From: Bimastos eiseni
Lineage: Eukaryota; Annelida; Clitellata; Crassiclitellata; Lumbricidae
Length of the DNA: 64,000 nt
Direction: 5' to 3'
Assembly (NCBI GenBank): GCA_959347315.1
Contig: OY365817.1
Location: forward strand, 2,204,295-2,268,294
Part shown: positions 4,366-64,000 of the stretch, piece by piece
Layout of the letters: every line of letters starts with the position of its first letter
How positions within the stretch are numbered: position 1 is the first letter of the stretch
Notes under the pieces: model-generated
The model's database searches: none
What the model was told of the DNA's origin: nothing
Seen by the model: only the letters and a program-made list of their open reading frames with translations
Program-made: the position numbers and the translations under genes

Positions 4366-4465
4366 ATGGAGCGGCTGAATATTAGAAAACAATCGTCAAA
4401 TGGTTTTGTTTTAACCTGTTTATTTTTATTGCTGTCGGCGGTTCTCGCATTTGCCGCTGAAACGG
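4366..4465 (+). CDS. Ig-gene exon 1: start codon and signal peptide
   Basis: Residues 1-33 plus one base. The ATG at 4366 has G at -3 and +4, and a TAG lies in the same frame at 4357-4359, so it is the first Met of its frame. A short basic N-region is followed by the hydrophobic core [17 protein letters not shown], ending in small residues typical of signal-peptidase sites. The donor is G|GTGAGT (phase 1). The next exon lies 24.7 kb downstream. Confidence 0.8.
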
Positions 4466-6647: not shown

Positions 6648-6733
<86 letters not shown>

Positions 6734-44769: not shown

Positions 44770-44825
<56 letters not shown>

Positions 44826-47800
44826 TATATACGAACAGATGCGATGAAGTTGGGATTAACTAGTTAAAAGTTTCTTTGGAACTGTGTTTTCATGCAGCGC
44901 CCATATCTGATCTGTACATAACATCGATGGACCCAGATGGAGAGGAGATGAGAATGGACGCAGAGAGTGAAGTCTTCCTTCAGGAGCATGACTTCTATGG
45001 AGTCGGATGTATCGCCATGCTCGAAGGAAGCCAGACTCCACCACAAGTGAGGGTGGAAATCGATGGAATAGACGAAACAGAGTCTTTCCAGGCCATTCAC
45101 CAGGTCAGGGCACGATACTTGACTGTTCATGGTTGATGCTCTATCCTCTCTCGCGGTTGAGGTATTGCACTCTTTTGTGGTTTGGGTACCATGCCATCTA
45201 GTGGTTAGCCAACTAAAAGTTGACTTAAGTGATTGAGGTATTATGTTATTTTGTGGCGGGGTACTATCCTCTCTAGTGGTTATAGTACTATCATCTCTAG
45301 TGGTTATAGTACTATGCTCTCTAGTGGTTATAGTACTATCCTCTCTAGTGGTTATAGTACTATGCTCTCTAGTGGTTATAGTACTATGCTCTCTAATGAT
45401 TGGGGTAGTACTATCCGCTTTAGTGGTTTGTTTACTATGCCATCTAGTGGTTGGGGGTATTATACTCTCTAGTGGTTTAGACCTATGATGCCCAGTTTTG
45501 GGGTACTATGCTCTCTAGTGCATGGGGTACTATGATCTGTAGTGGTTGGGGTATTATACTCTCTAGTGGTTTAGAACTATGGTACCCATTTTTGGGGTAC
45601 TATGCCCTCTAGTGGTTGGGGTACCATGCTCACAAATGTTTGTTGTTTTCAAATTGGAACGAATCAAGAGGTTTTGTGACTTCGTCCCCTATATTGAGTC
45701 CTGCACCATACAATTCATGGATGATTCGAAAGAAAAAGAATAGAGATTCAGACAAGAACTACGCTGAGTAGATAATATTATTAATAAGGGCTTGGATTAA
45801 CACTAATCGGAACACTGGATTTGAAAATGATCAAGGGCAATTCATGTTATATTTATTTGTATGCTAGGGCGCCAAATGACTGGCGTCAAGAACTGATGAT
45901 GATGATGATATTTGGATCCCTGTTGCCAAATTGTAAGTGTAATTTAACATTTATGTAGCGGCACTCAGACTGCAAAAACATATCTGCTAGCCTGTGTGGT
46001 GCCAAGTGTCATTGAGGACTTGAATATTGCAACAGCTAGCAGAACAATAAAAAAACTAGAAAGTGTCTCCAGTGGCGGGCCCACACACATACGTAAATGC
46101 GTTAAACAAATTTAAGTGGCAGATGGCATGGATGTGCAAAATGAGTACATTGACTATACAGTGTTCAAGGCAAGAGCAGTCTTCACATTTTCTATTCAAC
46201 CAGCGCCACCTACCAAAAACCTCTGATTTAAATGAGCCAACCTTCCTTATTGTATGCTGATGCAGAGAAAATGAAATCGCCAACATTTCATCGTTTATAC
46301 TCTTGAATGCCTCATTGACACAGACCTAACTTGCTGAAGTTTCGCTTTAGTTTTGCCTCAAGGTTTAGTTTCAATTGGTATATCTTTCAATTGTTATTAG
46401 GCTGAGTTATTTTGCCAAGTTTTTGCTTTAGTTCCAGTTGGGTGAAACTTAAACTTCTTCGTTTCAGTTACCTTCTCTTTTAGTTTCAGTGTCAGTTTTT
46501 CCTTCACTTACCCAACTCCATTGTATGTCAATTTACCGTAAATAAGTATGATTATATCAATGAATGCGTAAATGCATGGAATTCATGCATGTGAATGTGT
46601 GTAGGCCTATATGCGTATACGTGTTTGCATACATTCATACATACTTAACACAGTATTATACATACATTTGTTAATGTATTCATACCAACCGTTACATGCA
46701 TAGATGTATCTCTTTTCTCTCCTCCGTCATACAAGGTCGACGGCGAGCCATGTGCATATATATATCATATCATTCGTACATACATAGCATACATACATTC
46801 ATACTTTAATACAGTCATACATACACATGTGCATACACACATGCATACATAAATACATACAGACTGTATTCTTACGCACATACATGCATACATGCATGAA
46901 TCTTTATCGTCTTGCACCTCGTCTTCTTATTCTACTCGTTCTTCCTGTTATAGGTGGATGCTTCCATCCTCCAGTCTGGCCTGACCCTGTGGAGCAGTCA
47001 CCTCCGGTTGGCCCTGGTCTCTCCCACTCCCAACCCAGACTACAACGAAAAGCTGATGAGATGCGTTGCCTCACAGACTGGATTTCCAGACGTTGAGGCA
47101 ACGACAAGACTCCTTGTTCAGTGTAAGCAAATAATCCATGTTCAGGATTAAGAGTTTAGTAGTATTTTCAGTTTGACGCTATTGTGTGATTACAGAGATC
47201 ATTGCTATTGCCCTCCTCTATCATCCAGGTTTGGGACTGGCACTGCCAGAGTGCAGGGATTAGCGGAGACGATTTCGCTCATCCAAGTCTACATAATGGT
47301 CATTGTACCAGAAAGATCAAGCGAATGAGCACATTTCACGTTATGTACATTTGAATGAGATTGTTATAAAGGTGTTTATAGGACGCCTCTAATGGATGAT
47401 TTAATATAGGCCTATACTTGTGGTTCATAATTGTAACATACGATTTATTTTTTAGGTATTACATGTTAATTACTAATCACAAACAATGCAATTAACATCA
47501 TGGCATCTAAAGAAATTGAGCTCGTCTGATCTCTCCTACTTTTAACTTGCTTCCCTTGTATACACTCTACTGGTATCATACTAGTCGACGTATGGATGGA
47601 CTTAAAGTTTAACGATATCCTAATGGCCGTTGACGTCGACATAAATTATATATTTAAACAGTTCTCACCATTCTAATGGCATAGTCGTGGTTTCAATTCT
47701 TTACCACAAAATAAGTGTAACCTTTCCTTACTATGCCATTGTCAATCGTTTTCTCGAATTTTGAGTAGGCCAATAGTAGGTTCAGTTTAATGACACTGTG

Positions 47801-50800
47801 ATAACAAATATCATTAGTGGTGTCCTCCTTTCTCCACACAGTTTTGGGACTGACACTGCGAGAGAGCATACAGTGGTTGGGTCGATTATCCTATTCTGAA
47901 ATCTACATGAGCTGCGCCAATGGAAGTAAATTATGTCAAATGAGCAAATATCACTATAATGTAGAATTGAATGAGCGCGTTATAAAGGTGTTTTGTATAC
48001 GCCGTTTTTAATGGATTGTTTAACAAGGTCAATTATAGTGGCAGAATTTATTCCTATAGATTTGCAATGGTATTAATTTCGAGATCAATGGCGTTGCCCT
48101 CCTCCATTAGACAAGTCTTGTTACGAGTTTAGCGACATCTTCTGGCTGTTATAGTGCGATATGTAGAGTTGTACCGATATCGCTTTTTGCCGATTATGTG
48201 GATACCGATTATTGCCGATTCGTTTGCCGATACCAGATTATTTTGCCGATTATTTTACCGATTATTGTACTGATTATTTATTGTGTTTCCCAAGATGACC
48301 GGTTCTAAAAGATAGACCTGCTGCTACTGCCTTTTGTTGTGATAAAAGCAAAACACTTGCTCCGTAGGAGACGTATACATGTAGTTGGGGACAAATCCTA
48401 GGCAGCTAATACAGATTAGGCACACCGCCCGTTGTCGACCTTGCATGACGGAGGAGAGGAAAGATAATCTATGTAACTAGATGCCTTCTTCTAACATGCC
48501 AATGATGCCTTTCCCTCCCCCGACAGGCCACTTTTACGACTTGCCAATTTGGCCTAAAATGACATGATTGTGCCCAAGGTAATTAAGCAGAGACTATGAC
48601 TCACTCTGCACAACAGGCTACAGCTGTAGACACTTTCCCACGGTACTGGCAGTCTAGCACAATGGTTACTGGGTGGTCTGAAGTAGAATCCCGAGTTTCC
48701 CACGCTATGGGAAGCGAACGGAATGCTGTCCTTCACAGACCCAATGATGTTGCTGTCGTTATTTTGCTCTGAAAGACTGAAAAATAATATTATAAAATGA
48801 AATCGTTTAAATACCGGCGCCGATTATCTCTATAATTGACCTTAGTGATATGTCATTTATTTTCAAGCAAGTTGTATAATATGAACAATCGTCAGCTTCG
48901 TACTGCCGCATGTTCTCTAACTGCCAGTACTGCCAATAACTTCTGTCATGCCTTTATTACAGCACGGCTTGATTATTGTTTAACCCTCTGTTCTGGTCTG
49001 CCGGATATCCTGTAGTCTTGTCTTCATTGTATACTGCTAGCTGCAGCGTGCCGTATTGGCCAAATACCAAAATATGATCATATGTTGAAGATTCTGTATT
49101 GGCTTCCTGTCCGACAGCGTATCGAGTTGTCTCTCTGGTCGGGCGATGCCAACTTGGCCCTGCACCAGCCTACATGTGCATGATAGACCTTTGAGGGCCC
49201 TGTGTAGTCGTTCCCTTTGCTCTGCTGAGACAGGATGGTTCTTGTGGCCTGTACAGCAACTAAGCAAAGCTTTGAAAATTTAAAGTGCACTACATAAATT
49301 GTCGAATGAATGAATGTTTCTGACATTGAGAACATAATTCCACTGTACTCTACTTGCCTATAGGCTATAGTACTGTTTTAAATCCTGTATGAGTTGGGGT
49401 ATGCCCCAATTCAAGTCTGGTTATTTGAACTTCTCGTTTCCAAATGGAAGGTAGTTTTAAACATCTAGAAATCGCAAAACTTCGTCGTTCTATTCGTTTA
49501 TATACCGTGTGAAGAAAGGAATTAAAGGTGTCTAAAGATGCTACTAGCATATAGGAAGATTCGTTATTCTTGACCGGTATTGAACGGGTTTTTAAGTTTG
49601 CCGGTATTAATGATATCGATTTTAAAAAATTTTTTGTCTAGTAAAAGATTTAGCAAGATTTTTTTGTAGTATGGATGGATGTACAGAAGAAATAATTTGT
49701 TAATGTTAAAATATTTGTTCCCTCCACCTCAACGGCCTATCGTGACAAAAGCTATGGTTAAACTAATTGGATGCTTAAACACATTTAAAGCACTATGTTT
49801 AGACACCTTTAAAAGGAAGCTTTCAGATGTTTATAGACCCGTCATCTTTATTTTTCGGACAGTGTGTTCTATTTGTACATGTACAGTATAATATATTTCA
49901 CCAATGTTCGCTCTCTGACAGTGCCAGTCCCAAGAGTGAGTAAAGGAGGAGGGCGACGTTAATGCTACTTGTTGTCACAGTGTCATTAAACTGAATCTAC
50001 TACTACTACAATGTTAGCAAACTACTCATATGCTTGTATCTTGATCGTGCCAGTCCAAAGTGTCGGTAAAGAAGAAGGGCAACGCTAATGATCTTCGTTA
50101 TCACAGTATTGTTAAATCTGAAACTACTACATCTAAGCATTCTGACAATTCCGCCTTTCCATACACTTATTCATCCATCGATTCATCCATCTGTCTGTTC
50201 TTTCATTTATCCATCTGTCTATCCATTCTTCCATTCATTCAATTATCCATCCCTTCTTCACTACATTCATTTGTTCATTCATTCATCCATCCATCCATCC
50301 GCCTGTATATCTTTCCATACATCTATCAATTCATCTATCTATTCCTCCATTCATTCGTTCGGTTTTCCGTCCGTCCGTCCATCCATCCATCCAACCATCC
50401 ATCCATCATTAGGTACTTTCATATCCCTACCTACATGCATCTATCCATCCATCCATCCATCCATCCATCCATCTGTATCTCTTTAGTTTCCATACATCTA
50501 TCTATCCAACAATCCATTCGTCCGTCTCTCCCTCCATCCGTCGACCATCCATCCATCTATCTGTCCGTCCGTCCATTCAGTTACTCGTGGAATAATTTTC
50601 TCTTATAATTTTCAATTCTCATTCACTGCTATGAAATGACTTTCAATCTGGATCGACTTCTTTCTTTCAGTTGCTCCGCTGATCAACTGCGTTCCAGAAC
50701 GACTCGTTGCCAGACAGGGCACCAGCGCAACCCTGGACTGCAACATTCGAGCGAATCCAGGTAGTCGGATCACGTGGTCGTCGGCGAGAGGAGATCTCAG

Positions 50801-53800
50801 CAACTATCCCAACGTCTTCTTCGATGAGACGGTATTAACTCCACTGTTGAAAACATTCCACAGAGAAAAATGGGATCTGACCTAGCCTAACATAGCCTAG
50901 CCCAATCGAAGCTGATAGCTTTTATAATAATGTAAGTATGCGGGTTTGCATGAGTGTATATTGTATTGTCATCATCATCATGGTCCGTGGGTCGAAGACC
51001 CGTAGATGTCCATGCAACCTTAGGATTCCTGTTTCCATAGTTTTCCGCTGCTTCTGTCTTTGCATTGTATTGCTTTCGTCTATTTCTTTTTAATTGGAAC
51101 ATCTGCACCCACCCTTTTGACCCTCGCACTTCTCCCATGGGAAATTTTCAGGCTTGGGACTTGCTCAAATGCTGTCCAGTGTTAGAGGGGGCATTGTCTC
51201 CCACGTTATCCAGATTTTTTAGGGTTCCTGCTGAGCCTTTCGGCCAAAAGCCTTAACCATTTATGGCATAGCCTCATCAGTAACTACCCTATTCCATTGT
51301 TTCACACCCTCACCACTTGAGGCGTGGGTGTTACTTTGAAGAGGGTAACTCTTTGAGGACGGCATTACTTTGAAGACGGTATTACTTTGAAGAGGGTAAC
51401 ATTTTGAGGAGGGTATTACTTTGATGACGGTATTACTTTGAAGAGGGTATTACTTTGATGACGGTATTACTTTGATGACGGTATTACTTTGAGGAGGGTA
51501 TTGTACTACTATGTGGTTAAACTTTTACAAGGCACATCTATTACGTTCAGATGCACTCCTGGTGTACAGAGCCACGAGAGAAGAAGGTAACCAGCTGAAA
51601 TTTGAGAGGGAGTCGATGGAAGCACAAATATAGGGTGGACCATAGACAACAGATGGAGGCACCATTAGAGAATAGCCAATAGATGGATAGTGCGATGTCT
51701 ACGGGGCTATTGATATATATATATATCTATATATCTATATATATCGCTTTCAACTGACACTATTAGCCATTTTCGTGTCGATGCTTCTTTTGACACTGTG
51801 GACCATGAGATACATGTATGACCAGAATGTTTTCATAATTCCTTTTGTATCTATGTAGGCTGGTACCCTGCTCCTCTGGCTTAGATCCTTTCTTAATGAG
51901 CGCCCCTTTTGTGTAGCCCACAAGTGCTCTAGGTGCCGTTGGGCCCCTGGACCTCATGGTCTTCTCCAGGGCTCCGTGTTTGAAGAGCAAAGAGAAAGAT
52001 GTGAGTAGGCTGAAAGAGGCTGGAGTATTACATCCAGTACATATTTCGGAAGACCATAATGAGGATATTGAATTTAATGCATGCAGAGGGAGGGAGCCAG
52101 TGCAGTGGTTCAAACGTCAAGGTAGAAGTGTGAGGGTAACTACATGTATTTATCTAGCGGTCGTATAATTTAGGTGAAAAGCAAACTCTGGGAAAGCAAT
52201 ATATGCTTGCATGTGTGCTTGGATTGATGCAAGTACATGTATACATGTATGGTTAAAAACATGAAGGATGACCGGATGGAGGAGAGGTTTGTGGAAGCAG
52301 CTGCCAGAAGGAGCAGATGGATAAATAGATGGTGGGAGTTTTATGAAGTAGGAAGATGGGCGACCAACCAGCTTGTTGCGATATGTCTGTGTGTATGTAT
52401 GTGTATATGAAAGGTTGCATGCATGCGTGTATAGGTATTTACTGTTTTTGTATGTATGTATATATAAATGTACATGCTTGTCTATATGTATGTAAGCATA
52501 TAGACTATATATGTAAGTATGTTTGTATCTATATATTGTATATATATGTATGTGTGTATGTTTGTATGTATGTCATTATATGTAGGTGTCCTCTGGCTGT
52601 CGGATGGTGCATATGGGAAAGGTGCATTATTGGCTACTTGACAGATAGGCATCTCAGTGTTAAAGGTGTCTCTGTAGGTAAGGTCTACCACAGTTGAGGT
52701 TGACCATAATTCTACGAGATCGACGTTAATTCCAAGAGATTGTCGTTAATTCCAAGAGATTGACCAATTCTTCATTTGTGTAGCTCTTGCTACTCAGAAC
52801 TTACAATAGTTTCTCTGGTTTTGTTAAGAGGGTTTTGTCGCTCGTATTGTGCGCATTGGATGCCAATATCTTGGGTGCATTGCCAATGAGAGTAGCCGTT
52901 GTTTTCCACCTGACATCATGGTTTATGTTACATCTATTCACCGTGAGTGTGTCATTTGTAGATAATGTATAAATAATTGTACCCTTAATATTATAGTATT
53001 TCATTTGTCACCAGGGTCGTTACAATGTATGTAAGTGTATGTATTTATCTATGTATGCATGTATAAATATATGTTATAATGTTGATGATATTGAAGAAAT
53101 TCGAGTGTAGTTATTCGCTGGCATTCGATGACTCTATGTAATAATTCAGAGGCTCTAATTCAGCCAGGAATGGTCTATGAATAAAGTGTTGAGGTGTTTC
53201 TCTAGCATAACTAGGAGACAGTTTAGGTTGGAGGGCAGTTTTTCCCCTACATGTGGGGCTGATGAGGTGAAGGATCCTGACGCAGATTAGTGCGGCAGTG
53301 TGCAGGACTAGGGTTCGGTTCCCGGAGGATCTCATTCTCCCTTAGGGAATACGATATTTGAAGGAGGTTGGAGAGATATGATTGAAATATCAACTCGAAG
53401 CCTAGTCTGAATAATTTCCAAACCAAGTTTAAACAAATCTGAATAAAGTCTAAACCATGTCTAAACTAAGTCTGACAGAAATCTAAACTAAGTCTAGACT
53501 AAGTCCATGTTTCTCATTATTTTCAGGTGATTGGTTCCGATGAGACTCGCTTGAGACTGTCCATCCGTAACATCCGTCCGATCAACTTCCAGCGCTACAC
53601 GCTGACCGCGGCCAACATCATCGCTTCGAGTCAGTCGACTTTTGAACTCGTAGAGGATGAGACGGTTGTCGTGGAAACGCAGCCGGAAATGGAGAGCTTC
53701 CCGCCGGAGGTGGTGGAAGAGGTCTTTCCAGATGCAAGCAAAGACTTCCCTGCAATGGATGTGGATTGGGTCGTGGAGATGACTAGTATTGTGCCCGTGT

Positions 53801-56800
53801 CAAGTAGCATCTCTCTAGAAGCTAGTAGCACCTTGCCAGAGACAAGTAGCAGTTCTGTAAAAGAAGACAGAAGAACTCTAGCACCTACCATTAACGCTTC
53901 ATCAGATGTCAAAAGCACTTTGCAATTTGTCGACACCATATTTCCTGATGCCACTTTACCAGATGTCAAAACCACTTTACCAGCTGTCAAAACCACTTTA
54001 CCAGCTGTCAAAAGTACTTCGCAATATGTCAATGGCATGCGTACAGAGGGCATTTTACAAGATGTCAAAAGCACTTTATCAGATGTAAAAGGCACTTTGC
54101 AATTTGTTGATGGCATATTTCTTGATGCTGCTGGTCCAGATGTCAAAAGTACTTTATTAGATGTCAAAAGCACTTCGCCAGACGCCAAAAGCAATTACCA
54201 AAATGTTGACAGCACTCTACCCCTCGTCCAAAGCACTTTGCCAACAGTCAAAAAGACTAAAGCACCGGGCAAATCCCCTTCACCATACACAAAAACCACC
54301 AGCATCGAAGTTGACCTCAATTCTCCAGACCCAACAACCGTTTCACCATCACAGAGGAACCCTTCACCCTCTGGAAAGCTTCATTCTTCCCCAGGAGGTC
54401 GAGCAAGATCTGCCCACCACAAAGGCACCGGCATCCCGCAGAAAGCATCAAGAGATGCTCTGTCTACACCACCATCCGAAGCCGCAGCAAAGGCACCAAA
54501 GCCGAGTGTTGCCGCTTCACCTGAGGAGGTGCTAGAGCAGCCGCTGCCTGCTGCTGCAGCAGAGGTTCACTACTCACTATCCCGCTCATCATCTTCATCA
54601 TCGAAAAAAGATTCTGGTAATTTACGTAATGGTCGTGATTCATATAATAATCCAAGATGATCTTGTCTTAAATATAACCTTTTGTGATTCAGTCTAGTCC
54701 AATGAAATCTTAACTAACATATCCTCCTTACCTATTCTTATCCAATAAAATATAATCCAGTCTGACCCAAGATTATCAAATTTAATTGAGTGACTGAGTT
54801 GACATCTTGAGGGGCACTACGTAAATGTTAAAATAAATAAATGAATGACTGAATAAGATGCAATCATTATTATACCAGAGTTTAACGACATCCTATAGCA
54901 TCACAGACTGTTGACGTCTTTGTATTAGTTCAATGTCATACATGTTTTCATCCATTTTTTGTATTTCTTTCTTTTGTCTTTCTTTCTTTTGTCTTTCTTT
55001 CTAGGGCATGAGCGAGTAGACAATTTCCACCAAGTATTTAGATGAACTATTTGCCGGATCCGAGTACGAACAGAATAGTAGCGGCAAATCGGGCCAGCGA
55101 CTCAGCAAGTGCCATCCGTAGGCAAAGCATAGACAATGCAGAGCTACGGAGAACTATCTATAGTCAATACAGAGTCTATAGCAATATCCTTCATATAGCG
55201 TATCGTCGCACTGTATGCTATAACAATATATAACTTTATTTGTAAAAAAAATGTAAAACCTTGAAATATGAAGTTATCAACGACGTCTTTACTCTCTAAT
55301 GTTTACCCGATAGTGTGTGGAGCCAATTCAAGCGGCCAAATTACTGAATTGGCTGCACCTGGGGAATGCAACCAAAAGAAATTAAAATATATAAATTAAC
55401 GTCACTATTTTAAAGAAAATTCATTGGAATGTCAAGTTCTCGTTTAATCAGTCAGTAACTTATAAGTAAGTCCGTTAGTCCTACATTTATTTTATGAAAA
55501 AAGTGATTTTATCAAAAAAGTTATTTTTAGCTATTTGCGGGTGTAACATTTGCCGAGGCGAATACGTCCGAATAGTTCAATATTCGGCCGAGGCGATTTC
55601 TGGTTGTGCCTATTTCTTTCTCTTGTCTTTCTTTCGTTTTTCTGGTTACTTATTCCTTTTCTGACACTTGTTCGCAGATTGATTGGTCTTATATGTTTTT
55701 CATAACATTTATATACATGTATATATATATATATATACATGTACATATATATATATATACATGTACATATATATATATATACATGTACATATATATATAT
55801 ATATATATACATACATGTACATATATATACATGTACAAAAAAACAACTTACATGTTGTAATTAAATACTGGTGTCCAAAAATAGTCAATGATATAGCTTT
55901 TCCCATATCCATTACCCACTGCACTAACCATATTTAGTTCCTTCAGTTAAGTTAAGAATTTGGACCCTGTAGTCTCTGTATATATATCTACGCCAAACAC
56001 ACGCACACGCGCGCACATACGCGCGCTCACGCCTACGCTCACGCCTACGCACACGCCTTCGCATACGCACACGCCTACGCCCGCGCGCACCTACGCGCGC
56101 ACACGCCCACGCCTACGCACACGTCCACGCCCGGACCTACGCACGCCCACGCCCAACCCTACGCCTACGCACACGCCTACGCCCACGCCTACGCACACGC
56201 CCACGCAGGCGGCGCCCTCGCACACGCCCACGCGCGCAACTACGCGCGAACACGCCTACGCACACGCGCGCCCACGCCTACGCACACGCCCACGCAGGCG
56301 GCGCCCACGCACACGCCCACGCGCGCAACTACGCGCGAACACGCCTACGCACACGCCTACGCCTACGCGCGCACACGCCCACGCCTACGCACACGCCCAC
56401 GCAGGCGACGCACACGCCCACGCACACGTCCACGCCCGGACCTACGCACGCCCACGCCCAACCCTACGCCTACGCACACGCCTACGCACACGCCTACGCA
56501 CACCCGCCTACGCACACGCCTACGCACACGCCTACGCACACGCCTACGCACACGCCTACGCACACGCCTACGCACACGCGCGCCCACGCCTACGCACACG
56601 CCCACGCAGGCGGCGCCCTCGCACACGCCCACGCGCGCAACTACGCGCGAACACGCCTACGCCTACGCACACGCCTACGCCTACGCGCGCACACGCCCAC
56701 GCCCACGCAGGCGGCGCCCACGCACACGCCCACGCGCGCAACTACGCGCGAACACGCCTACGCCTACGCACACGCCTACGCACGCGCCTACGCACACGCC

Positions 56801-58583
56801 TACGCATACGCACACGCCTACGCCCGCGCGCACCTACGCGCGCACACGCCCACGCCTACGCACACGCACACGTCCACGCCCGGACCTACGCACGCCCACG
56901 CCCAACACTACGCCTACGCACACGCCTACGCACACGCCTACGCACACGCCTACGCACACGCCTACGCACACGCGCGCCCACGACTACGCACACGCCCACG
57001 CAGGCGGCGCCCACGCACACGCCCACGCGCGCAACTACGCGCGAACACGCCTACGCACACGCCTACGCCTACGCCTACGCCTACGCGCGCCCACGCCCAC
57101 GCCTACGCACACGCCCACGCCCACGCAGGCGGCGCCCACGCACACGCCCACGCGCGCAACTACGCGCGAACACGCCTACGCACACGCCTACGCACACGCC
57201 TACGCACACGCCTACGCATACGCACACGCCTACGCCCGCGCGCACCTACGCGCGCACACGCCCACGCCTACGCACACGCCTACGCACACGCACACGTCCA
57301 CGCCCGGACCTACGCACGCCCACGCCCAACACTACGCCTACGCACACGCCTACGCACACGCCTACGCACACGCGCGCCCACGACTACGCACACGCCCACG
57401 CAGGCGGCGCCCACGCACACGCTCACGCGCGCAACTACGCGCGAACACGCCTACGCACACGCCTACGCACACGCCTACGCACACGCCTACGCACACGCCT
57501 ACGCACACGCCTACGCACACGCCTACGCATACGCACACGCCTACGCCCGCGCGCACCTACGCGCGCACACGCACACGCCTACGCACACGCACACGCACAC
57601 GTCCACNNNNNNNNNNNNNNNNNNNNNNNNNNNNNNNNNNNNNNNNNNNNNNNNNNNNNNNNNNNNNNNNNNNNNNNNNNNNNNNNNNNNNNNNNNNNNN
57701 NNNNNNNNNNNNNNNNNNNNNNNNNNNNNNNNNNNNNNNNNNNNNNNNNNNNNNNNNNNNNNNNNNNNNNNNNNNNNNNNNNNNNNNNNNNNNNNNNNNN
57801 NNNNNNCCTACGCACACGCCTACGCACACGCCTACGCACACGCACACGCCTACGCCCGCACCTACGCGCGCACACGCCTACGCACACGCCTACGCACACG
57901 CACACGTCCACGCCCGGACCTACGCACGCCCACGCCCAACCCTACGCCTACGCACACGCCTACGCACACGCCTACGCACACGCCTACGCACACGCCTACG
58001 CACACGCCTACGCACACGCGCGCCCACGCCTACGCACACGCCCACGCAGGCGGCGCACACGCACACGCCCACGCGCGCAACTACGCGCGAACACGCCCAC
58101 GCCCACGCACACGCCCACGCCTACGCACACGCGCGCCTACGCACACGCCCACGCAGGCGGCGCCCACGCACACGCCCACGCGCGCAACTACGCGCGAACA
58201 CGCCCACGCACACGCACACGCCCACGCACACGCACACGCGCGCCCACGCCTACGCACACGCCCACGCAGGCGGCGCCCACGCACACGCCCACGCGCGCAA
58301 CTACGCGCGAACACGCCTACGCCTACGCACACGCCTACGCCTACGCGCGCACACGCCCACGCCTACGCACACGCCCACGCCCACGCAGGCGGCGCCCACG
58401 CACACGCCCACGCGCGCAACTACGCGCGAACACGCCCACGCCTACGCCTACGCACACGCCTACGCACACGCCTACGCACACGCCTACGCTCACGCACATA
58501 CGCCCTCGCCCACACGCCCACATATATATATACACACACACATATATATACACACACACACACTCATATATATACACACACAC

Positions 58584-58638
<55 letters not shown>

Positions 58639-59626
58639 CACATATACGCATATACGCATATATATATATATACACACACGAGTCCAGTCAGATCCTATAG
58701 GATTCTGTCCAACAGAGCACCTCAGAGTTGACTTCTTGAGGCATGCTATATAAATGCTAGAATGAATGAATGAACAAATGGATGAATGAATGAATATGAT
58801 ATAATTTAATCTTGTCTACTATCATCATAATTTTCATTTTCTTTGTGTTGCAAGCTGTTGACTGTGATGGGTATGAGTAAATGCGGTGCTGTTAACTTTG
58901 TAATTTTCCAGAACTTTTGTTTTCCGTGTGATTCATTATTTTTATGCGGACTGTCCATCTCGGTCTTTGTCGGTCTTTTGTTTCTGTTTTCTGTGAATCT
59001 TGCATGCATTGCATTATTTTGGGTTACGACTATCATTGGAGTAACATCTAATCTATCAAACCCATAGATACTTTAATAATATATAATATCTGTTGGGCCT
59101 TTGATAGTCGAATAATACCTAATCTATGGGATTCTTGGATAGCCTAATAACTGATCTATTTTTGATCTCTGGACAGTCTAATTAATGATATCGAATCTAA
59201 TGGACGCTAGGATAGTCTAATAGTATTTACCCCGATACTCAATTTGGTCTTCGGATAGTCTAATGATTTCTTATCTGTCAGACTCTAGGATGGTCTAATA
59301 ATATCTACTCTATCTGATCTTTGGATAGTCTAATGGTATGTAATCTACTGGATGCTTGGATAGTCTTAATTATAATTATCTTATTTATCGGACCCTTCAA
59401 TAATTTAATTTTTTGGGCAATACAATTAAAATGTGTAAAAGAAAACTATTGTATTACAGCTACATTGTTTCAGTCTTTAGTATTAGAGCTCCATTGTGTA
59501 AACCTGTTACGTTTTTCAGGTAAATCCGGTAAAGCAAGTAAATCTACCTCGGACGGTGCTCCTGCTCTGACTGTCATCCAATCTCTTCTAGCAACACTTC
59601 TGCTAAACCTCATTCGATGGTTCTGA
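4366..59626 (+). CDS. GPI-anchored, mucin-stalked three-Ig-domain cell-surface protein (8 coding exons)
   Basis: Spliced model: 4366-4465, 29166-29471, 30334-30420, 44898-45103, 46954-47122, 50671-50831, 53527-54616, 59520-59626. It totals 2226 nt, 741 residues plus stop, and every join keeps frame with GT/AG borders. Order: signal peptide (about 1-31), V-like Ig domain 1 (about 43-164, Cys74-Cys147), Ig domain 2 (about 166-289, Cys202-Cys270), Ig domain 3 (about 291-385, Cys313 and Trp325 but Leu369 where the second Cys is expected), Ser/Thr/Pro-rich stalk (about 386-715, with VKST-type repeats at 470-586), then a GPI-type tail (about 717-741). Likely an extracellular adhesion or recognition glycoprotein tethered to the outer membrane leaflet. 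Three Ig domains plus GPI recall IgLON/lachesin-like proteins, but the long mucin-like stalk does not, so orthology is not claimed. N-glycosylation sequons occur at Asn69 and Asn160. Domain calls are from motifs by eye; splice sites lack transcript proof. Confidence 0.82.
5930..6135 (+). mobile_element. Retroelement 3' end with (AATG)n tail
   Basis: Ends in AAAGGGGCGCTACAGGAATC and a tail of AATGAATG/AATTAATT. The same kind of terminus recurs near 30055, 39510, 49285, 54820 and 58738, so these look like 3' ends of related LINEs or SINEs. Confidence 0.45.
6533..6912. repeat. ~80-bp direct repeat flanking a (CT)n microsatellite
   Basis: 6533-6612 and 6831-6912 are near-identical (both include AGTTCTATTGGGAACTC and AAGCTTCAATGTA). 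They flank an 82-bp CT run at 6651-6732. Confidence 0.85.
7490..7625 (-). mobile_element. tRNA-like SINE head (minus strand)
   Basis: On the - strand, a box-A-like TAATGGTTATTGTGCTTGACTG is followed ~35 nt later by a box-B-like GTTTAGATCCTTGCC. No cloverleaf was drawn, so this is a tentative SINE head. Confidence 0.3.
7930..7992 (+). mobile_element. Repeat family A copy
   Basis: GTGCCAGTCTGA, then GAGGAGGGCGACGCTAAT and TTTTGTTAT. Forward orientation, 3' side degraded. Confidence 0.65.
8195..8390 (-). mobile_element. SINE-like repeat, copy 1
   Basis: Shares an ~80-bp core with 33570-33720 (AAGTTACTGCAGGAGTCGAA against AAGTTACTACAGGATTCGAA, then GCAAGGCG). Its - strand looks tRNA-like, with GTTTAGCGTAATGGACGCC and a TTCGACTCC box B. 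Confidence 0.5.
8690..8940. repeat. (TCTG/CCTG)-rich low-complexity tract
   Basis: Degenerate TCTG and CTGCCTCC repeats. Open frames here are Leu/Ser/Cys-rich artefacts. Confidence 0.8.
8969..9070. repeat. 12-bp minisatellite CTGTCTCTGTGT
   Basis: About eight and a half perfect 12-bp copies. The unit length is a multiple of three, so it is open in several frames. Confidence 0.95.
9205..9310. other. GC-rich patch
   Basis: CCCGCCC/CCTGCC-rich 100 bp in AT-rich DNA; function unknown. Confidence 0.4.
9530..9717. repeat. (CA)n, (CGCA)n and (TA)n simple repeats
   Basis: CACACACA then CGCACGCA near 9535-9562, and TA runs around 9595 and 9680-9717. Confidence 0.85.
9871..10012. repeat. (ATATATATAAAG)n minisatellite
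   Basis: Repeated TATATAAAGATA units of 10-22 bp. On the - strand it gives a spurious Tyr/Ile-rich frame. Confidence 0.9.
10565..10690 (+). mobile_element. Interspersed repeat family B copy
   Basis: Contains the family hallmarks GGAATAAGCTGGTGCCC, TTGGCTTTCGAGTGGCAC and AGAAGTTTGAAGATTACGAT. Other copies lie at 15483-15600, 28515-28630, 34705-34800 (reverse) and 35360-35440. Confidence 0.65.
11260..11530. repeat. (TCTG)n-like low-complexity tract
   Basis: Degenerate TCTGTCTG/TGTCTATC repeats; the Leu/Val/Cys-rich frames across it are artefacts. Confidence 0.8.
11895..12100. repeat. (TACA)n degenerate tract
   Basis: TACATACA with interruptions. Confidence 0.8.
12608..12912 (-). mobile_element. 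Two copies of repeat family A (reverse orientation)
   Basis: 12608-12712 contains GTCGCCCTCCTCCTTTA and GCACTGCCAGAGTGC; 12830-12912 is a second, more diverged copy. Family A is an ~85-bp element with at least 13 copies in the window (see findings). Confidence 0.75.
13010..13085 (+). mobile_element. tRNA-like SINE head
   Basis: TTAGCTCAACAGG fits a box A; the following GTCGATACAATAGTGTCGG recurs in diverged form at 14255-14320. Box B is weak. Confidence 0.3.
13420..13725. other. Unassigned region open on both strands
   Basis: A 99-codon frame on - and a 61-codon frame on +. The - strand product has a short hydrophobic segment ([14 protein letters not shown]). I do not recognise a family and it may be chance. 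Confidence 0.15.
14639..15375 (+). pseudogene. Degenerate fragment of a dispersed transposon-type protein gene
   Basis: One frame can be read for about 240 codons. It runs from [17 protein letters not shown] through [20 protein letters not shown], the acidic [32 protein letters not shown] and [18 protein letters not shown] to [18 protein letters not shown]. In-frame stops interrupt it at 14698 (TGA, where the family appears to have Cys) and 15101 (TAA). Coding similarity ends near 15360, well short of what I recall as a much longer protein. I recall this family as highly multicopy and uncharacterised in invertebrate genomes, which suggests a mobile-element protein, but I cannot name its class. 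Confidence 0.55.
15483..15600 (+). mobile_element. Interspersed repeat family B copy
   Basis: ACGCAGCGCTGTCGAATAAG, then AATAATCTGGTGCC and CTTGGCTTTAGAGT: diverged family B. Confidence 0.55.
16618..16690. repeat. 15-bp minisatellite CAATGAAACTTGAAT
   Basis: Nearly five perfect copies, so recently expanded. Confidence 0.95.
17738..17905. repeat. (ATCC)n-rich tract
   Basis: Degenerate ATCC/ATTC repeats. His/Pro/Ser-rich frames across it are artefacts. Confidence 0.85.
18300..18960 (+). pseudogene. LINE reverse-transcriptase relic with 3' end
   Basis: Fragments in shifting frames match the RT palm of Jockey/CR1-type LINEs: [20 protein letters not shown], then [13 protein letters not shown]. 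Downstream comes a C-terminal [20 protein letters not shown], then a 3' end GCGCCTCTGAATAGATTTC with a TTGATTGATT tail. The same 3' end recurs at 63108-63165. Multiple frame breaks; non-functional. Confidence 0.65.
19313..19400 (+). mobile_element. Repeat family A copy
   Basis: GCAGTGCCAGTCCCTAACCT, GGATAAAGGAAGAGGGTGAC and TTTTGTTATCACACAATGTC. Confidence 0.75.
20270..20808 (-). pseudogene. LINE C-terminal relic (RNase H-side region)
   Basis: On the - strand, [18 protein letters not shown] is followed by [20 protein letters not shown] and [17 protein letters not shown]. The R-x-E-V-x-L-x-R-L-R-x-G then C-x2-C and INHLL-x-x-C pattern is typical of the end of RNase H-bearing or similar LINEs. 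The upstream part (20625-20808) is repeated almost exactly at 32190-32368. Confidence 0.6.
21840..21905 (+). mobile_element. tRNA-like SINE head, tentative
   Basis: ATTCTAGTGGTTAGCATACT resembles a tRNA D-arm/box A, followed by CTGCCAATG and GGCCGGATTTAAG (poor box B). Confidence 0.25.
22150..22395 (+). pseudogene. LINE C-terminal relic
   Basis: [18 protein letters not shown] matches the L-H-W-L-P-I/V-x-x-R-I motif after the LINE RT. It ends with GGCGCTATACAAATGTTCG, a retroelement 3' terminus. Confidence 0.5.
22411..22510 (+). mobile_element. Repeat family A copy and tRNA box-B-like motif
   Basis: GGAGAGGGGCGACGCTAATG and CACACAGTGCCCTTAAAC, then GGTCGCAGGTTCAAGTCCCC, which fits a Pol III B box. 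Confidence 0.6.
23290..23500 (-). mobile_element. Retroelement 3' end, reverse orientation
   Basis: TTTATATAGCGCCTCTCACAG and CACCGGTGGTGGGCCC. A related arrangement occurs at 45945-46085 (TTTATGTAGCGGCACTCAGA, CCAGTGGCGGGCCC). Confidence 0.4.
24182..25607 (-). pseudogene. MULE transposase with N-terminal FLYWCH zinc finger, disrupted
   Basis: Starts at ATG 25605-25607. Residues ~15-68 have a FLYWCH pattern: [33 protein letters not shown]. Then come the MULE catalytic segments [12 protein letters not shown] (Asp), [14 protein letters not shown] (Asp) and [12 protein letters not shown] (Glu). There is one frameshift near 24810, and in-frame stops at 24569-24571 (TAA, Tyr expected) and 24554-24556 (TGA, Trp expected); beyond them the frame continues to the terminal TAA at 24182. 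It would catalyse cut-and-paste transposition if intact; as it stands it is dead. Confidence 0.85.
25951..26134. repeat. Duplicated MULE terminus with captured internal fragment
   Basis: 25956-26012 repeats 25018-25074 of the transposase (GGCGTAGTTTTAAAGGTGCC, CAGCGTACCAATGCGAAGAT). It is followed by another copy of the right inverted repeat, in the same orientation as the first. Confidence 0.85.
26315..26332. repeat. Perfect 18-bp palindrome
   Basis: CATAATAGGCCTATTATG. It may be chance or a binding site. Confidence 0.5.
28515..28630 (+). mobile_element. Repeat family B copy with 23-bp tandem duplication
   Basis: A 23-bp unit containing CTATCGACTCTGTTTTGAAT occurs twice in tandem from 28515, leading into AATAAGCTGGTTCCC and ACGATTACGATTGAGAGG. 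Confidence 0.6.
29166..29471 (+). CDS. Ig-gene exon 2: first half of Ig domain 1
   Basis: The acceptor is a pyrimidine tract ending TCTTCTGCAG; the donor is G|GTCTGT; phase 1 on both sides. It encodes residues 34-136, including the B-strand [11 protein letters not shown] (Cys74, sequon at Asn69) and the D/E strands [11 protein letters not shown] and ARMTIHVE. The usual C-strand Trp is replaced (YDVFRISL), so the V-like fold has a modified core. Its frame stays open into the intron to a stop at 29597-29599, which is intron sequence rather than coding. Confidence 0.85.
29755..30100 (+). mobile_element. Interspersed repeat family F, copy 1, with simple-repeat tail
   Basis: Shares GGTGCATTATTGGCTAC, TTAAAGGTGTGTCTCT and GTTGAGGTTGA-type blocks with 52610-52910. 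Ends GGGGTGCTATATAAATCTTC and (TTGATTGG)n. Lies in intron 2. Confidence 0.55.
30334..30420 (+). CDS. Ig-gene exon 3: second half of Ig domain 1
   Basis: 87 bp, phase 1 to phase 1, acceptor AACAG, consensus donor GTAAGT. It carries the strand-F hallmark [13 protein letters not shown] (Cys147) and the G strand SAVLNITVL with a sequon at Asn160. This D-x-G-x-Y-x-C motif is the clearest evidence for an Ig domain in the window. The exon is too short to stand out as an open reading frame. Confidence 0.9.
30655..30895 (+). mobile_element. tRNA-derived SINE, forward copy
   Basis: Box A TGGCCGATCGTTTAGAG (30686-30702) and box B GGTTCGACCCT (30735-30745) form a tRNA-like head. It is followed by a body (CACTTGAGCAAGTCCTTCGC, TGCAGTACAACTGCAATTG) and an (AATAAATAAA) tail. 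The reverse copy at 44075-44300 matches along its whole length. Confidence 0.85.
31525..31605 (-). mobile_element. Repeat family A copy
   Basis: CATCGCCCTCCTCCTTTATC and GGCTTGAGACTGTCACTTC; reverse orientation. Confidence 0.7.
32190..32368 (-). mobile_element. Second copy of the 20625-20808 LINE segment
   Basis: ~180 bp with very few differences from 20625-20808, including AGAATCGGAAAGAAGTGATT and CATATTGGAGCTCCTTAAAA. Both lie in introns of the Ig gene. Confidence 0.85.
33570..33720 (-). mobile_element. SINE-like repeat, copy 2
   Basis: Partner of 8195-8390 (AAGTTACTACAGGATTCGAA, AAATGCAAGGCGACC). Confidence 0.5.
33800..33860 (+). repeat. Repeat family C copy
   Basis: TTTAACGACATCGTATGGC and GTTGACGTCTTC. 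Similar copies at 35508-35570, 47605-47660, 54878-54935, partly 32455-32490, and 40145-40200 (reverse). Confidence 0.55.
34398..34475 (-). mobile_element. Repeat family A copy
   Basis: GTCGTCCTCCTCCGTCATC and GGTTTGGGACTAGCGCCAT. Confidence 0.65.
34705..34800 (-). mobile_element. Repeat family B copy, reverse
   Basis: CCAAACTTCTAAAGCGCCAC, GCACCAGCTTATTC and CAGCGCTGCGTCGAAT. Confidence 0.7.
35237..35575 (+). mobile_element. Cluster of families A, B and C
   Basis: Family A (reverse) at 35237-35312 with GTACCCTCCTCCTTTTAG; family B at 35360-35440 with GAATAAGCTGGTGCCC; family C at 35508-35570 with TTTAACGGCGTCGTATGGC. Confidence 0.6.
35590..35925. other. T-rich low-complexity tract
   Basis: TTTTTCTCT-rich DNA just upstream of the RT relic. 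The Phe-rich open frame through it is an artefact that happens to run into real RT sequence. Confidence 0.6.
35930..38290 (+). pseudogene. Non-LTR retrotransposon copy 1 (RT, CCHC knuckle, endonuclease-like C-terminus), 5'-truncated
   Basis: Recognisable protein starts near 35938 ([13 protein letters not shown]). RT motifs in order: [59 protein letters not shown], and the catalytic [10 protein letters not shown] with YMDD at 36724-36735. Further on are [15 protein letters not shown], a cysteine knuckle ([11 protein letters not shown] to LSC) and a PD-(D/E)xK-like stretch ([14 protein letters not shown], then WDATVIDT), ending at a TAG at 38199-38201. Two frameshifts, near 36405 and 36885, break it. 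RT followed by CCHC and a restriction-like nuclease is the layout of R2/NeSL/HERO-type elements; clade not assigned. The 3' tail is (ATA)n to about 38290. Confidence 0.8.
38455..38500. repeat. 10-bp tandem repeat CATGACGTTG
   Basis: Five degenerate copies, alternating CATGACGTTG and CATGACACTG. Confidence 0.8.
38482..38757 (+). pseudogene. LINE post-RT fragment (different lineage)
   Basis: [20 protein letters not shown] and [15 protein letters not shown] match the R/K-L-x-Y-x-x-P-A-W-W-G segment that follows RT in Jockey/RTE-like LINEs. No RT core adjoins it. Confidence 0.6.
39150..39535 (+). pseudogene. LINE C-terminus and 3' end
   Basis: [28 protein letters not shown] and [16 protein letters not shown] are a typical LINE C-terminus in one frame from 39225. 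The 3' end is GGGGCACTATATAGATCTTG with AATGAATGG. Probably inserted separately from 38482-38757. Confidence 0.75.
39730..39900 (-). mobile_element. 5'-truncated inverted copy of the copy-2 retrotransposon 3' end
   Basis: The - strand matches the end of the 40200-43440 element from about 43280 onward: CGTATCTC, GGACATTGCC, GGGCGATAACAGCATAATG, then a (TAA)n tail. Severe 5' truncation is typical of target-primed reverse transcription. Confidence 0.85.
40200..43440 (+). pseudogene. Non-LTR retrotransposon copy 2, near full length but broken
   Basis: N-terminal Cys/His finger-like [10 protein letters not shown] with HRHG; a conserved N-terminal block [17 protein letters not shown] and [11 protein letters not shown] motifs [62 protein letters not shown] and [10 protein letters not shown]. 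The Tyr of YxDD is replaced here. A knuckle ([12 protein letters not shown] to LIC) and the nuclease-like [14 protein letters not shown] then WDVTVPDT follow. Defects: in-frame TGA at 40779; frameshifts near 41380, 41520, 42005, 42050 and 43030; and a 181-bp duplication at 42722-42902. Stop TAG at 43362-43364, then a (TAA)n tail. It is a different subfamily from copy 1. Confidence 0.8.
42722..42902 (+). repeat. Duplicated internal segment of retrotransposon copy 2
   Basis: Near-copy of 42171-42359 inserted ~360 bp downstream inside the same element, in the same orientation, flanked by TGGC on both sides. Confidence 0.9.
43490..43720. repeat. Polypyrimidine tract
   Basis: C/T-rich over ~230 bp, low complexity. 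Confidence 0.7.
44075..44300 (-). mobile_element. tRNA-derived SINE, reverse copy
   Basis: On the - strand: box A TGGCCGATCGGTTAGAG, box B GAGTTCGACTCTCG, the body, and a GGTAATAAAT tail. Same family as 30655-30895. Confidence 0.85.
44305..44490. repeat. (AAT)n / (GAT)n microsatellite
   Basis: AATAATAAT with GATGAT interruptions; the Ile-rich frames are artefacts. Confidence 0.9.
44773..44833. repeat. (TA)n microsatellite before exon 4
   Basis: ~60 bp of near-pure TA ending 65 bp before the exon 4 acceptor. Confidence 0.9.
44898..45103 (+). CDS. Ig-gene exon 4: first half of Ig domain 2
   Basis: Acceptor TTTTCATGCAG, donor CAG|GTCAGG, phase 1 in and phase 0 out; residues 165-233. It begins API as an inter-domain linker and contains the B-strand Cys202 ([10 protein letters not shown]). 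The C strand reads QVRVEID with no Trp, so this is an atypical C2/I-like domain. It follows a long TA microsatellite in the intron. Confidence 0.8.
45186..45640. repeat. 24-bp minisatellite in intron 4
   Basis: CTCTCTAGTGGTTATAGTAC-based 24-bp units, nearly identical at 45255-45410 and more diverged on the flanks. It starts ~80 bp after exon 4. Frames reading SGYSTMLS repeats are artefacts of a unit divisible by three. Confidence 0.92.
45945..46085 (-). mobile_element. Retroelement 3' end-like repeat
   Basis: Parallels 23290-23500 (TTTATGTAGCGGCACTCAGA, then CCAGTGGCGGGCCC). Confidence 0.4.
46615..46890. repeat. (CATA)n degenerate tract
   Basis: CATACATACATTCATAC repeats up to just before exon 5. 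Confidence 0.85.
46954..47122 (+). CDS. Ig-gene exon 5: second half of Ig domain 2
   Basis: Acceptor TTCCTGTTATAG, donor T|GTAAGC, phase 0 in and phase 1 out; residues 234-290. It contains strand E (SSHLRLALV), strand F with Cys270 ([12 protein letters not shown]) and strand G (EATTRLLVQ), completing Ig domain 2. The joint with exon 4 restores one continuous domain of normal length. Confidence 0.8.
47160..47260 (-). mobile_element. Repeat family A copy
   Basis: ATTGCCCTCCTCTATCATCC and GGGACTGGCACTGCCAGAG, 40 bp after exon 5. Confidence 0.75.
47786..47862 (-). mobile_element. Repeat family A copy
   Basis: TTTAATGACACTGTGATAAC, GTGTCCTCCTTTCTCC and GGGACTGACACTGCGAGAG. Another fragment lies at 48077-48125. 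Confidence 0.7.
48170..48290. repeat. GCCGATTAT-rich degenerate repeat
   Basis: TGCCGATTAT/TACCGATTAT repeated about eight times. A shorter CCGGCGCCGATTATC occurs at ~48815, possibly the ends of a non-autonomous DNA transposon. Confidence 0.4.
48880..49320 (+). pseudogene. LINE C-terminal relic
   Basis: [20 protein letters not shown] and [19 protein letters not shown] match the H-A-F-I-x-S-R-x-D-Y-C and H-W-L-P-V-R-Q-R-I motifs of LINE proteins. A stop interrupts it. 3' end GTGCACTACATAAATTG with GAATGAATG. Confidence 0.75.
49380..49480 (-). pseudogene. Small LINE C-terminal fragment
   Basis: - strand [20 protein letters not shown] resembles the R-R-E-V-x-L-T-R-L-R-I-G-H-T motif, as in 20270-20808. 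Confidence 0.4.
49918..50130 (+). mobile_element. Two tandem-oriented copies of repeat family A
   Basis: 49918-50005 and 50046-50130, both with GTGCCAGTCC, AGGGC-AACGCTAATG-type cores and a CTACTAC end. Only ~40 bp separates them. Confidence 0.75.
50155..50580. repeat. (ATCC)n-rich tract before exon 6
   Basis: Long degenerate ATCC/ATTC array; the Ser/His/Pro-rich frames across it are artefacts. Confidence 0.9.
50671..50831 (+). CDS. Ig-gene exon 6: first half of Ig domain 3
   Basis: Acceptor is a strong pyrimidine tract ending TTTCTTTCAG, donor ACG|GTATTA, phase 1 in and phase 0 out; residues 290-343. It encodes [16 protein letters not shown], then the B strand [11 protein letters not shown] (Cys313) and a C strand with a canonical Trp (RITWSS, Trp325). 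An additional Cys296 precedes the domain. Confidence 0.85.
51330..51500. repeat. 17-bp minisatellite GGTATTACTTTGATGAC
   Basis: About nine copies with GAAGAG/GATGAC/GAGGAG variants. Confidence 0.9.
51770..51975 (+). pseudogene. LINE RT relic
   Basis: [11 protein letters not shown] resembles the D-x-S-K-A-F-D-T-V-D-H motif; [14 protein letters not shown] and GLLQGSV follow in other frames. Frames are broken. Confidence 0.6.
52380..52580. repeat. (GTAT)n degenerate tract
   Basis: GTATGTATGTAT with interruptions. Confidence 0.8.
52610..52910 (+). mobile_element. Interspersed repeat family F, copy 2
   Basis: Partner of 29755-30030. Contains a short internal tandem GTTAATTCCAAGAGATTG. Confidence 0.5.
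53265..53345 (+). mobile_element. tRNA-like fragment
   Basis: GGGTTCGGTTCCCGG fits a B box, with a poor box A upstream. Tentative SINE remnant. Confidence 0.25.
53527..54616 (+). CDS. Ig-gene exon 7: end of Ig domain 3 and mucin-like stalk
   Basis: Acceptor TTATTTTCAG, phase 0 in; donor G|GTAATT, phase 1 out; residues 344-707. The first ~42 residues are strands E-G of Ig domain 3 ([19 protein letters not shown]), where Leu369 occupies the place of the second Ig cysteine. The rest is a Ser/Thr/Pro/Lys-rich stalk. Residues ~470-586 repeat an eight-residue unit like LPDVKSTL, with the longer block TLQFVD-x-IF-x-DA occurring twice. Such stalks are usually extended and O-glycosylated. If the donor is not used, the frame runs on to a TGA at 54658-54660. 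Confidence 0.82.
54617..54660 (+). CDS. Alternative end of exon 7 (read-through to stop, possible secreted form)
   Basis: If the GTAATT donor at 54617 is skipped, the frame continues for 13 more codons ([13 protein letters not shown]) to TGA. AATAAA follows at 54744-54749. This would give a 720-residue product with no membrane anchor. It is an inference from the sequence; it could simply be intron. Confidence 0.35.
54744..54749 (+). terminator. Candidate intronic poly(A) signal AATAAA
   Basis: AATAAA 84 bp after the alternative stop of exon 7. Hexamers like this are frequent in AT-rich DNA, so the position is the only support. Confidence 0.3.
55715..55842. repeat. (TA)n with periodic CATGTACA
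   Basis: ~24-bp units of TATATATATATACATGTACA. Confidence 0.9.
55990..58510. repeat. CpG-dense hexamer satellite (CCTACG/CACACG) with higher-order units
   Basis: About 2.5 kb of hexamers of the form NNNNCG. Inserted blocks recur: CAGGCGGCGCCC about 12 times; CGCCCGGACCTACGCACGCC at about 56130, 56434, 56878, 57301 and 57913; CGCGCGCACCTACGCGCG at about 56080, 56822, 57234 and 57548. The spacing of the last two suggests ~420-bp higher-order units. Because the unit is divisible by three it is open in several frames; the resulting ~920-codon frame is not a gene. Confidence 0.95.
57607..57806. other. Assembly gap (200 N)
   Basis: Exactly 200 N inside the satellite; the round number suggests a placeholder, so the true array length is unknown. 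Confidence 0.99.
58510..58678. repeat. (CA)n/(TA)n tract
   Basis: Alternating CACACA and TATATA immediately after the satellite. Confidence 0.95.
58716..58800 (+). mobile_element. Retroelement 3' end
   Basis: CTTGAGGCATGCTATATAAA, then AATGAATGAATGAAC. Related to 54790-54860. Confidence 0.5.
59100..59380. repeat. Degenerate ~45-bp tandem repeat just before exon 8
   Basis: TTGGATAGTCTAATAATATC-like units, about seven copies. Confidence 0.8.
59520..59626 (+). CDS. Ig-gene exon 8: GPI-attachment signal and stop
   Basis: Acceptor TTACGTTTTTCAG. The 107-bp exon joins exon 7 in phase 1 (split Gly codon) and encodes residues 707-741. It has a basic, small-residue region ([13 protein letters not shown]), then a hydrophobic tail ([17 protein letters not shown]) ending RWF and TGA at 59624-59626. 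Small residues S717-A720 followed by 15-20 hydrophobic residues at the extreme C-terminus are the signature of GPI-anchor signals. A type I membrane helix is less likely because there is no cytoplasmic tail. Phase and tail together make this exon convincing despite the 4.9-kb intron. Confidence 0.72.
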
Positions 59627-63686: not shown

Positions 63687-63970
63687 TCACTTTGTGTCTG
63701 AAAGCAGGGCCACTCCTCGCATGATCCAGTGATCCGGATCAGCCTGGGTCTTCAGAAGTAGTGGGAAGATGTAAGTGAGGTCGGTTCGTCGTGGCTTCTT
63801 ATAGACGGGGCATTCGTAGAGACCGGAGCTCTTGCGACGTTCACCGTTAATGGCGAAGATGTGTACGACGGGAAGAGCGGTGTAGAGAACCTTTGGTGGT
63901 GGCTCCACCAGACGATGACTTCTCCGATCCCAACCAGCTCCATCCAAGAACAAACCGTGCACATAAACGC
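63687..63970 (-). CDS. Axonemal dynein heavy chain, last coding exon (partial gene)
   Basis: On the - strand an acceptor TTTGTAG lies just above 63970. The exon reads GVYVHGLFLDGAGWDRR, EPPPKVLYTALPVVHI, LYECPVYKKPRRTDLTYIF and DHWIMRGVALLSDTK, then TGA at 63687-63689. This is the C-terminal end of the dynein heavy chain C-terminal domain, the part after the AAA+ ring of the motor that drives cilia and flagella. The PVYKKP-x-RTDL and RGVALL motifs resemble outer-arm (DNAH5/DNAH8-like) chains, though the exact paralogue is not certain. The rest lies beyond the window. It is convergent with the Ig gene, and the coding sequence looks intact. Confidence 0.92.
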
Positions 63971-64000
63971 CTACAAATCAAGTTCAAACAAATCAAGTTC

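Follow-up and report, generated by a model that had tools for sequence, protein, structure and literature searches.

A gene of eight exons encoding a surface protein with three immunoglobulin (Ig) domains was identified in a 64,000-nucleotide stretch of the Bimastos eiseni genome (contig OY365817.1, positions 2,204,295 to 2,268,294; "the window" below means this whole stretch). The gene runs from 4366 to 59626 on the plus strand, and its product consists of a signal-peptide-like start, three Ig domains, a repeat-containing stalk of about 326 residues and a hydrophobic C-terminus. The gene is real, and the original prediction, which had assembled a spliced surface receptor gene here, was right in every number that it stated. 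The product is probably an adhesion or recognition protein of the secretory pathway, most likely held by a glycosylphosphatidylinositol (GPI) anchor, with a V-set Ig1 at the distal end, a divergent Ig2, an I-set Ig3 and the stalk as a flexible spacer.

Gene structure

The exons were rebuilt without any inner coordinates as input. Joined, they form a single reading frame of 741 codons, the intron phases being 1,1,1,0,1,0,1, so that exon number, protein length and phase series were all identical to those predicted. The splice sites, which had been called consensus, are GT..AG at all seven introns (24700, 862, 14477, 1850, 3548, 2695 and 4903 bases, in order). Introns at domain borders, namely before Ig1, between Ig1 and Ig2, between Ig2 and Ig3 and after the stalk, are in phase 1. 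The introns within Ig2 and Ig3 are in phase 0 and the one within Ig1 is in phase 1.

Exon 1 (4366-4465) holds the start codon and the signal-peptide-like sequence (residues 1-33), ends in the phase-1 donor GGgtgagt and is directly preceded by an in-frame stop. A linker and the V-set Ig1 as far as strand E are encoded by exon 2 (29166-29471; residues 34-135), and the end of Ig1 with the F-strand motif DSGTYIC by exon 3 (30334-30420), which was located by a phase-1 motif scan. The divergent Ig2 is divided between exon 4 (44898-45103, with Cys 202) and exon 5 (46954-47122, with Cys 270). The first half of the I-set Ig3, containing A-strand Cys 296 and B-strand Cys 313, lies in exon 6 (50671-50831), and its second half, in which YTLTAAN replaces the F-strand Cys, lies in exon 7 (53527-54616) together with nearly the whole stalk. 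Exon 8 (59520-59626), beyond an assembly gap, encodes the small-residue sequence STSDGA and a hydrophobic end resembling a GPI signal, followed by the stop codon.

The closest relative found, P0001 (503 amino acids, from a 2214-base contig), has a frame that is contiguous where the window has introns 2-7 and thus crosses six of the seven junctions. No gaps occur in its alignment to Ig2 and Ig3, and the match is firm to the left and right of junctions 2/3, 3/4, 4/5, 5/6 and 6/7; junction 7/8 is also covered, but weakly. That exons 2-7 belong to one gene, as had been proposed, is borne out by this contiguous match. When the window was searched by tblastn with P0001, all six exons 2-7 were matched at E values from 4.9e-26 to 4.7e-8 (exon 2, 1.8e-19; exon 3, 4.7e-8; exon 4, 7e-20; exon 5, 2.4e-18), and the best-conserved piece was exon 6, with 45 of 53 residues identical. 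No other match to P0001 was found in the window at E<=0.1, and none was found at E<=10 in 100 dinucleotide shuffles of the window. The more distant P0002 gave matches in 3 of 100 shuffled windows (29.3 bits at most) and four matches of 33.1-37.4 bits in the real window. Because P0001 matches these exons and no shuffled window, chance is excluded for exons 2-7.

The window was also examined for paralogous and alternative Ig exons, and the idea was rejected, as P0001 and P0002 matched only the listed exons by tblastn at E<=0.1. Positions 52410-52562, where P0003 gave a weak match (E 0.078) in repetitive sequence, were not accepted as an exon.

Relatives of the protein

Of 4204 candidates scored from a set of 5.8 billion proteins, P0001 alone was a relative at E<=1e-3 (E 1.5e-132, 64% identity, covering 93% of residues 35-390, the Ig part). 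A profile search returned four sequences at E<=1 among 6217 candidates, and a wider one returned at least seven at E<=10 among 7995. The three extra sequences, P0005 to P0007, are fish Ig proteins, two named perlecan-like or Ig-like and one named hypothetical protein at the source. The suggestion that the protein is lineage-specific held as far as it was tested, since these searches of the set yielded only four members of the family, P0001 to P0004, none of which carries a name. No description of the family was found in the open-licence PMC literature searched, which does not prove its absence, and no relative was among 149 pattern matches in viral contigs.

The complete layout recurs in P0002 (491 amino acids, 29% identity), where a signal-peptide-like start leads into three Ig domains, which are followed by a linker of some 43 residues and about 14 hydrophobic residues at the end. 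P0003 is the translated exon 2 of a close relative, with 83 of 102 residues identical inside the exon and 28 of 83 in the flanks. An apparent end of this similarity at the exon 2 donor was dropped as an argument, because tblastn continues beyond it at lower identity. P0004 is exon 7 of that relative, identical at 42 of 45 positions in Ig3, at 99 of 212 (52 gaps) in the first part of the stalk and at 80 of 107 in the second. Its first residue is a called start codon, which gives no evidence on the acceptor of exon 7. Since both P0003 and P0004 contain intron-like read-through, they are probably genomic in origin.

Conservation differed between domains. Identity to P0001 was 61/107 in Ig1, 75/125 in Ig2 and 74/98 in Ig3; for P0002 the values were 37/107, 39/125 and 30/98. 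The order in P0001, with Ig3 most conserved, would fit a fast-evolving outer domain, but this reading is not firm because the order in P0002 differs. It bears on the possibility that the protein is an immune or self/non-self receptor, whose Ig head and repeat stalk diverge under conflict, rather than a wiring or adhesion protein. The few and unnamed relatives, the strongly variable stalk length and the lower likeness of Ig1 than Ig3 in P0001 would agree with such a receptor. However, the lower likeness of Ig1 does not recur in P0002, the Ig domains are under strong constraint in P0001 and P0004, and no tandem paralog was matched in the window, so that we consider an immune receptor distinctly unlikely.

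The two ends of the gene

The first 30 residues combine a basic start with a hydrophobic core that reaches 2.76 in 15-residue hydropathy, and the last 22 residues form a hydrophobic stretch after STSDGA (up to 1.91). A signal-peptide-like start, as had been predicted, is therefore present, and P0002 has one likewise. Exons 1 and 8 are nevertheless the least certain parts of the gene model. If the Ig part were right and the first or last exon wrong, the protein might be secreted or transmembrane, and several observations can be read in this way. Exon 1 is joined over a 24.7-kb intron at a junction with no direct homolog support, and it ranks only 20th by alignment to the start of P0002 among 175 phase-1 ATG..GT first exons upstream of exon 2. 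Intron 7 contains a run of 200 N (57607-57806) and a long tandem array. Among 114 acceptors aligned to the P0001 tail, two unrelated frames came out higher (30 and 25) than exon 8, whose score of 23 was equalled by three or more further acceptors. If the donor at 54616 were left unspliced, the frame would continue for 14 codons through 54617-54660 (stop at 54658-54660), and the product would be soluble, lacking the hydrophobic end.

Against an error at either end, exon 1 is the sole candidate of the 175 in which a good donor goes together with a net basic start and a core like that of a signal peptide. The terminal-exon scan left 9 of 112 candidates with a hydrophobic tail and a fair pyrimidine tract, and the tract of exon 8 is the best of the nine. 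When the KKDS prefix was omitted, the four frames best aligned to the P0001 tail were all acceptors of exon 8's own tail, and the tail is of the same type in P0001 and P0002. P0004 shares KKDSG before donor 7 and its frame diverges beyond, so the read-through is not common to both sequences. A wrong first or last exon is therefore unlikely in our judgement.

With exon 8 correct, a hydrophobic C-terminus without a cytoplasmic part is found in all three sequences that can be compared (the window protein, P0001 and P0002). Of the GPI-type tail originally proposed, the hydrophobic end thus stands, also in the relatives, and attachment to GPI itself is a putative property suggested by the sequence.

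Ig domains

Matches above the curated Pfam cut-offs were obtained for V-set (59-155), I-set (296-384), Ig_3 and ig. The structure model of P0001 contains three Ig domains, with residues 1-341 aligned to DIP-eta, and together these results uphold the three Ig domains of the original prediction. No Pfam family matched Ig2 convincingly.

In a search of the PDB with the full profile, MDGA1 (59.3 bits), DIP-alpha (56.8), DIP-eta (55.6) and DIP-theta (51.0) came first, and residues 268-384, the end of Ig2 and Ig3, aligned in register to Ig3 of DIP-eta. Combined with three Ig domains and a GPI-type end, these matches raise the possibility of a strongly diverged true member of the IgLON, DIP and lachesin proteins (Wirins) with an enlarged juxtamembrane region. 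The individual domains argue against it. Antibody V domains were on top among the best 60 of 846 matches to Ig1, a result that leaves room for DIP kinship. Ig2 gave no solved chain that was convincing by sequence; its only row (E 0.58) was not a DIP, and such a list likewise leaves room for kinship. In Ig3, the F-strand Cys present in DIP-eta and DIP-alpha is replaced, reading YTL in the window protein and P0001 and YAL in P0002 where DIP-eta has YRC; this Cys is also absent in P0004. Membership in the Wirins is thus rather unlikely, and the stalk described below adds to the case against it.

In all three sequences an A-strand Cys precedes the B-strand Cys of Ig3 (296/313 in the window protein, 238/255 in P0001 and 323/344 in P0002). 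In the P0001 model Cys 238 closes the strand 235-238 and Cys 255 lies in the strand 251-258, so that an A-B disulfide appears possible from the predicted structure. As both cysteines are retained over 29% identity, their conservation suggests a function.

DIP-eta and Necl-4 tie on top among the structural neighbours of the P0001 model (Z within 1), and the structural libraries leave the choice between DIP and Necl undecided as far as this model can tell. The Foldseek list of the first model, headed by DIP-alpha, SYG-2 and DIP-theta, was not taken as evidence, as that model was too poor for use.

Stalk

The stalk of about 326 residues contains 26% Ser+Thr, 10% Pro, 34 Lys/Arg and 38 Asp/Glu. 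Its 7-residue repeat was matched six times in the window protein and four times in P0004, and tandem repeat finder (TRF) detected three 21-base tandem copies on the plus strand within exon 7 (53951-54013), which code for the repeat TTLPAVK. A mucin-type domain has roughly 40% Ser+Thr over 100 residues, and the richest 100-residue stretch of the stalk reaches 33%, the richest 60-residue stretch 37%. The predicted "mucin-like" stalk of about 330 residues is thus retained in its length and its repeats and not in its mucin density. By its composition, it is a putatively disordered, low-complexity spacer rich in Ser, Thr, Lys and Asp, which carries 7-residue repeats and falls short of the density of a mucin domain.

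The stalk measures 326 residues in the window protein, 143 in P0001 and 43 in P0002, with borders set by us. In IgLON, DIP and lachesin proteins, by contrast, the segment between Ig3 and the anchor is short. Because a single exon, exon 7, encodes both the second half of Ig3 and nearly the whole stalk, and contains the 21-base tandem copies, the stalk has probably grown in place rather than been brought in as a separate exon.

Introns and neighbouring sequence

Intron 1 contains transposase remains on the minus strand (24182-25616), in which a FLYWCH domain was recognised (1.9e-16) along with a match to MULE transposase below threshold. Two broken reverse-transcriptase elements lie in intron 3 on the strand of the gene (36232-38201 and 40248-43364), with RVT_1 matches of 9.2e-14 at 36232-36951 and 3.3e-7 at 41488-42015. 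The array enclosing the 200-N gap in intron 7 (56024-58495) is GC-rich, about 2.5 kb long and built of units of 6, 12, 18 and 113 bases, and it contains long accidental open frames. Minisatellites were found at 2320-3190 (unit about 189 bases), 45258-45631 (about 24) and 51327-51502 (about 17/51).

At the right end, a C-terminal piece of an axonemal dynein heavy chain (63687-63977, minus strand; Pfam Dynein_C 9.3e-32) marks a neighbouring gene that leaves the window. Its best named PDB match was DNAH5 (103.9 bits), and the top row (123.7 bits) was a 4730-residue chain labelled CFAP57. No tRNA and no Rfam family at the gathering threshold was found in the 64-kb window.

Proposed mode of action

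Several points weigh against an anchored adhesion or recognition protein. The gene model was read from genomic DNA and not from a transcript of the species. P0001 starts at MDAV and so says nothing on exon 1, and its search label "lgn" presumably means SRA assemblies. Exon 8 is not uniquely supported by the alignments, and the GPI-type tail was read from sequence features only. Such features do not allow GPI anchors to be predicted reliably, and homology is no basis for deducing membrane anchoring (PMC10863630). The first structure model, made with another alignment, was poor (mean pLDDT 43.8), the alignment for the better one included three fish Ig proteins, and the five P0001 models differ (67.4 to 51.6). 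A shared fold, moreover, shows no function.

We nevertheless favour the anchored protein. Its signal peptide would be cleaved off on entry into the secretory pathway, and a GPI anchor would attach it to the outer membrane leaflet. The membrane-distal V-set Ig1 could then contact a partner on another cell across the gap, homophilically or heterophilically, with Ig2-Ig3 acting as a rod and the stalk setting the reach above the cell surface. Since the protein has no cytoplasmic part, any signalling would pass through a transmembrane co-receptor. A precedent comes from the DIPs, which are GPI-anchored and no longer aggregate cells once their anchor has been cut (PMC10863630). The recognition role implied by "receptor" in the original prediction may apply.

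A bolder proposal, to which we give little weight, is that the protein is the first described member of a lineage-restricted GPI-anchored V-C-I family, in which the Ig3 disulfide is replaced by the A-/B-strand Cys pair and a repeat-built stalk of about 43-326 residues, in the exon of the Ig3 end, serves as a spacer of adjustable length beneath a head that recognises self/non-self or cell type. If the protein is an anchored recognition protein as favoured above, an unnamed family would join the few three-Ig recognition proteins with a GPI anchor that come from outside the insects, nematodes and vertebrates, and it would offer a natural test of stalk length and of a lost canonical Ig disulfide in adhesion. 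The locus also illustrates that a 55-kb gene with a 24.7-kb first intron and internal transposons can be read correctly from sequence alone.

Comparison with known systems

In Hydractinia, the Alr proteins are polymorphic Ig-superfamily surface proteins with low identity among members, and Alr1 and Alr2 are single-pass transmembrane proteins (PMC11067881). They are a thinkable functional analogue, whereas the window protein ends in a hydrophobic stretch without a cytoplasmic part.

MDGA1 is, like the proposed product, a GPI-anchored Ig protein, and it was the highest-scoring PDB chain for both the full profile and the Ig3 profile. Its chain is longer (910 residues in the PDB entry), and no single stretch passed the threshold alone. 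MDGA1 has more Ig domains and a MAM domain.

Necl-4/CADM4 and nectin-1 share a three-Ig ectodomain with a V-set first domain, and descent from a V-C-I adhesion protein of the nectin/CADM type, with the transmembrane and cytoplasmic end swapped for a GPI signal, could explain this. By sequence, however, CADM4 lies far below the DIPs and MDGA1 (33.5 bits, compared with 55-59). In nectins and CADMs a transmembrane span is followed by a cytoplasmic tail, and neither part is seen in any of the three sequences, given that exon 8 is right. Such an ancestry is accordingly very unlikely.

DIP-eta, DIP-theta and DIP-alpha and the IgLONs NEGR1, OPCML and neurotrimin likewise have three tandem Ig domains and a C-terminal GPI-type end, and the DIPs were the top structural matches and, together with MDGA1, the top PDB sequence matches. 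The window protein differs from them in its V-set Ig1, its divergent Ig2 and an Ig3 that has an A-strand Cys and lacks the F-strand Cys, so that the B-F cysteine pair of the aligned DIP-eta and DIP-alpha is absent from it and from P0001, P0002 and P0004. The protein probably acts in the manner of DIP/IgLON or nectin/CADM proteins, but membership in either group is not established; it seems to be kin to cell-recognition proteins already known and not a molecule of a new type.
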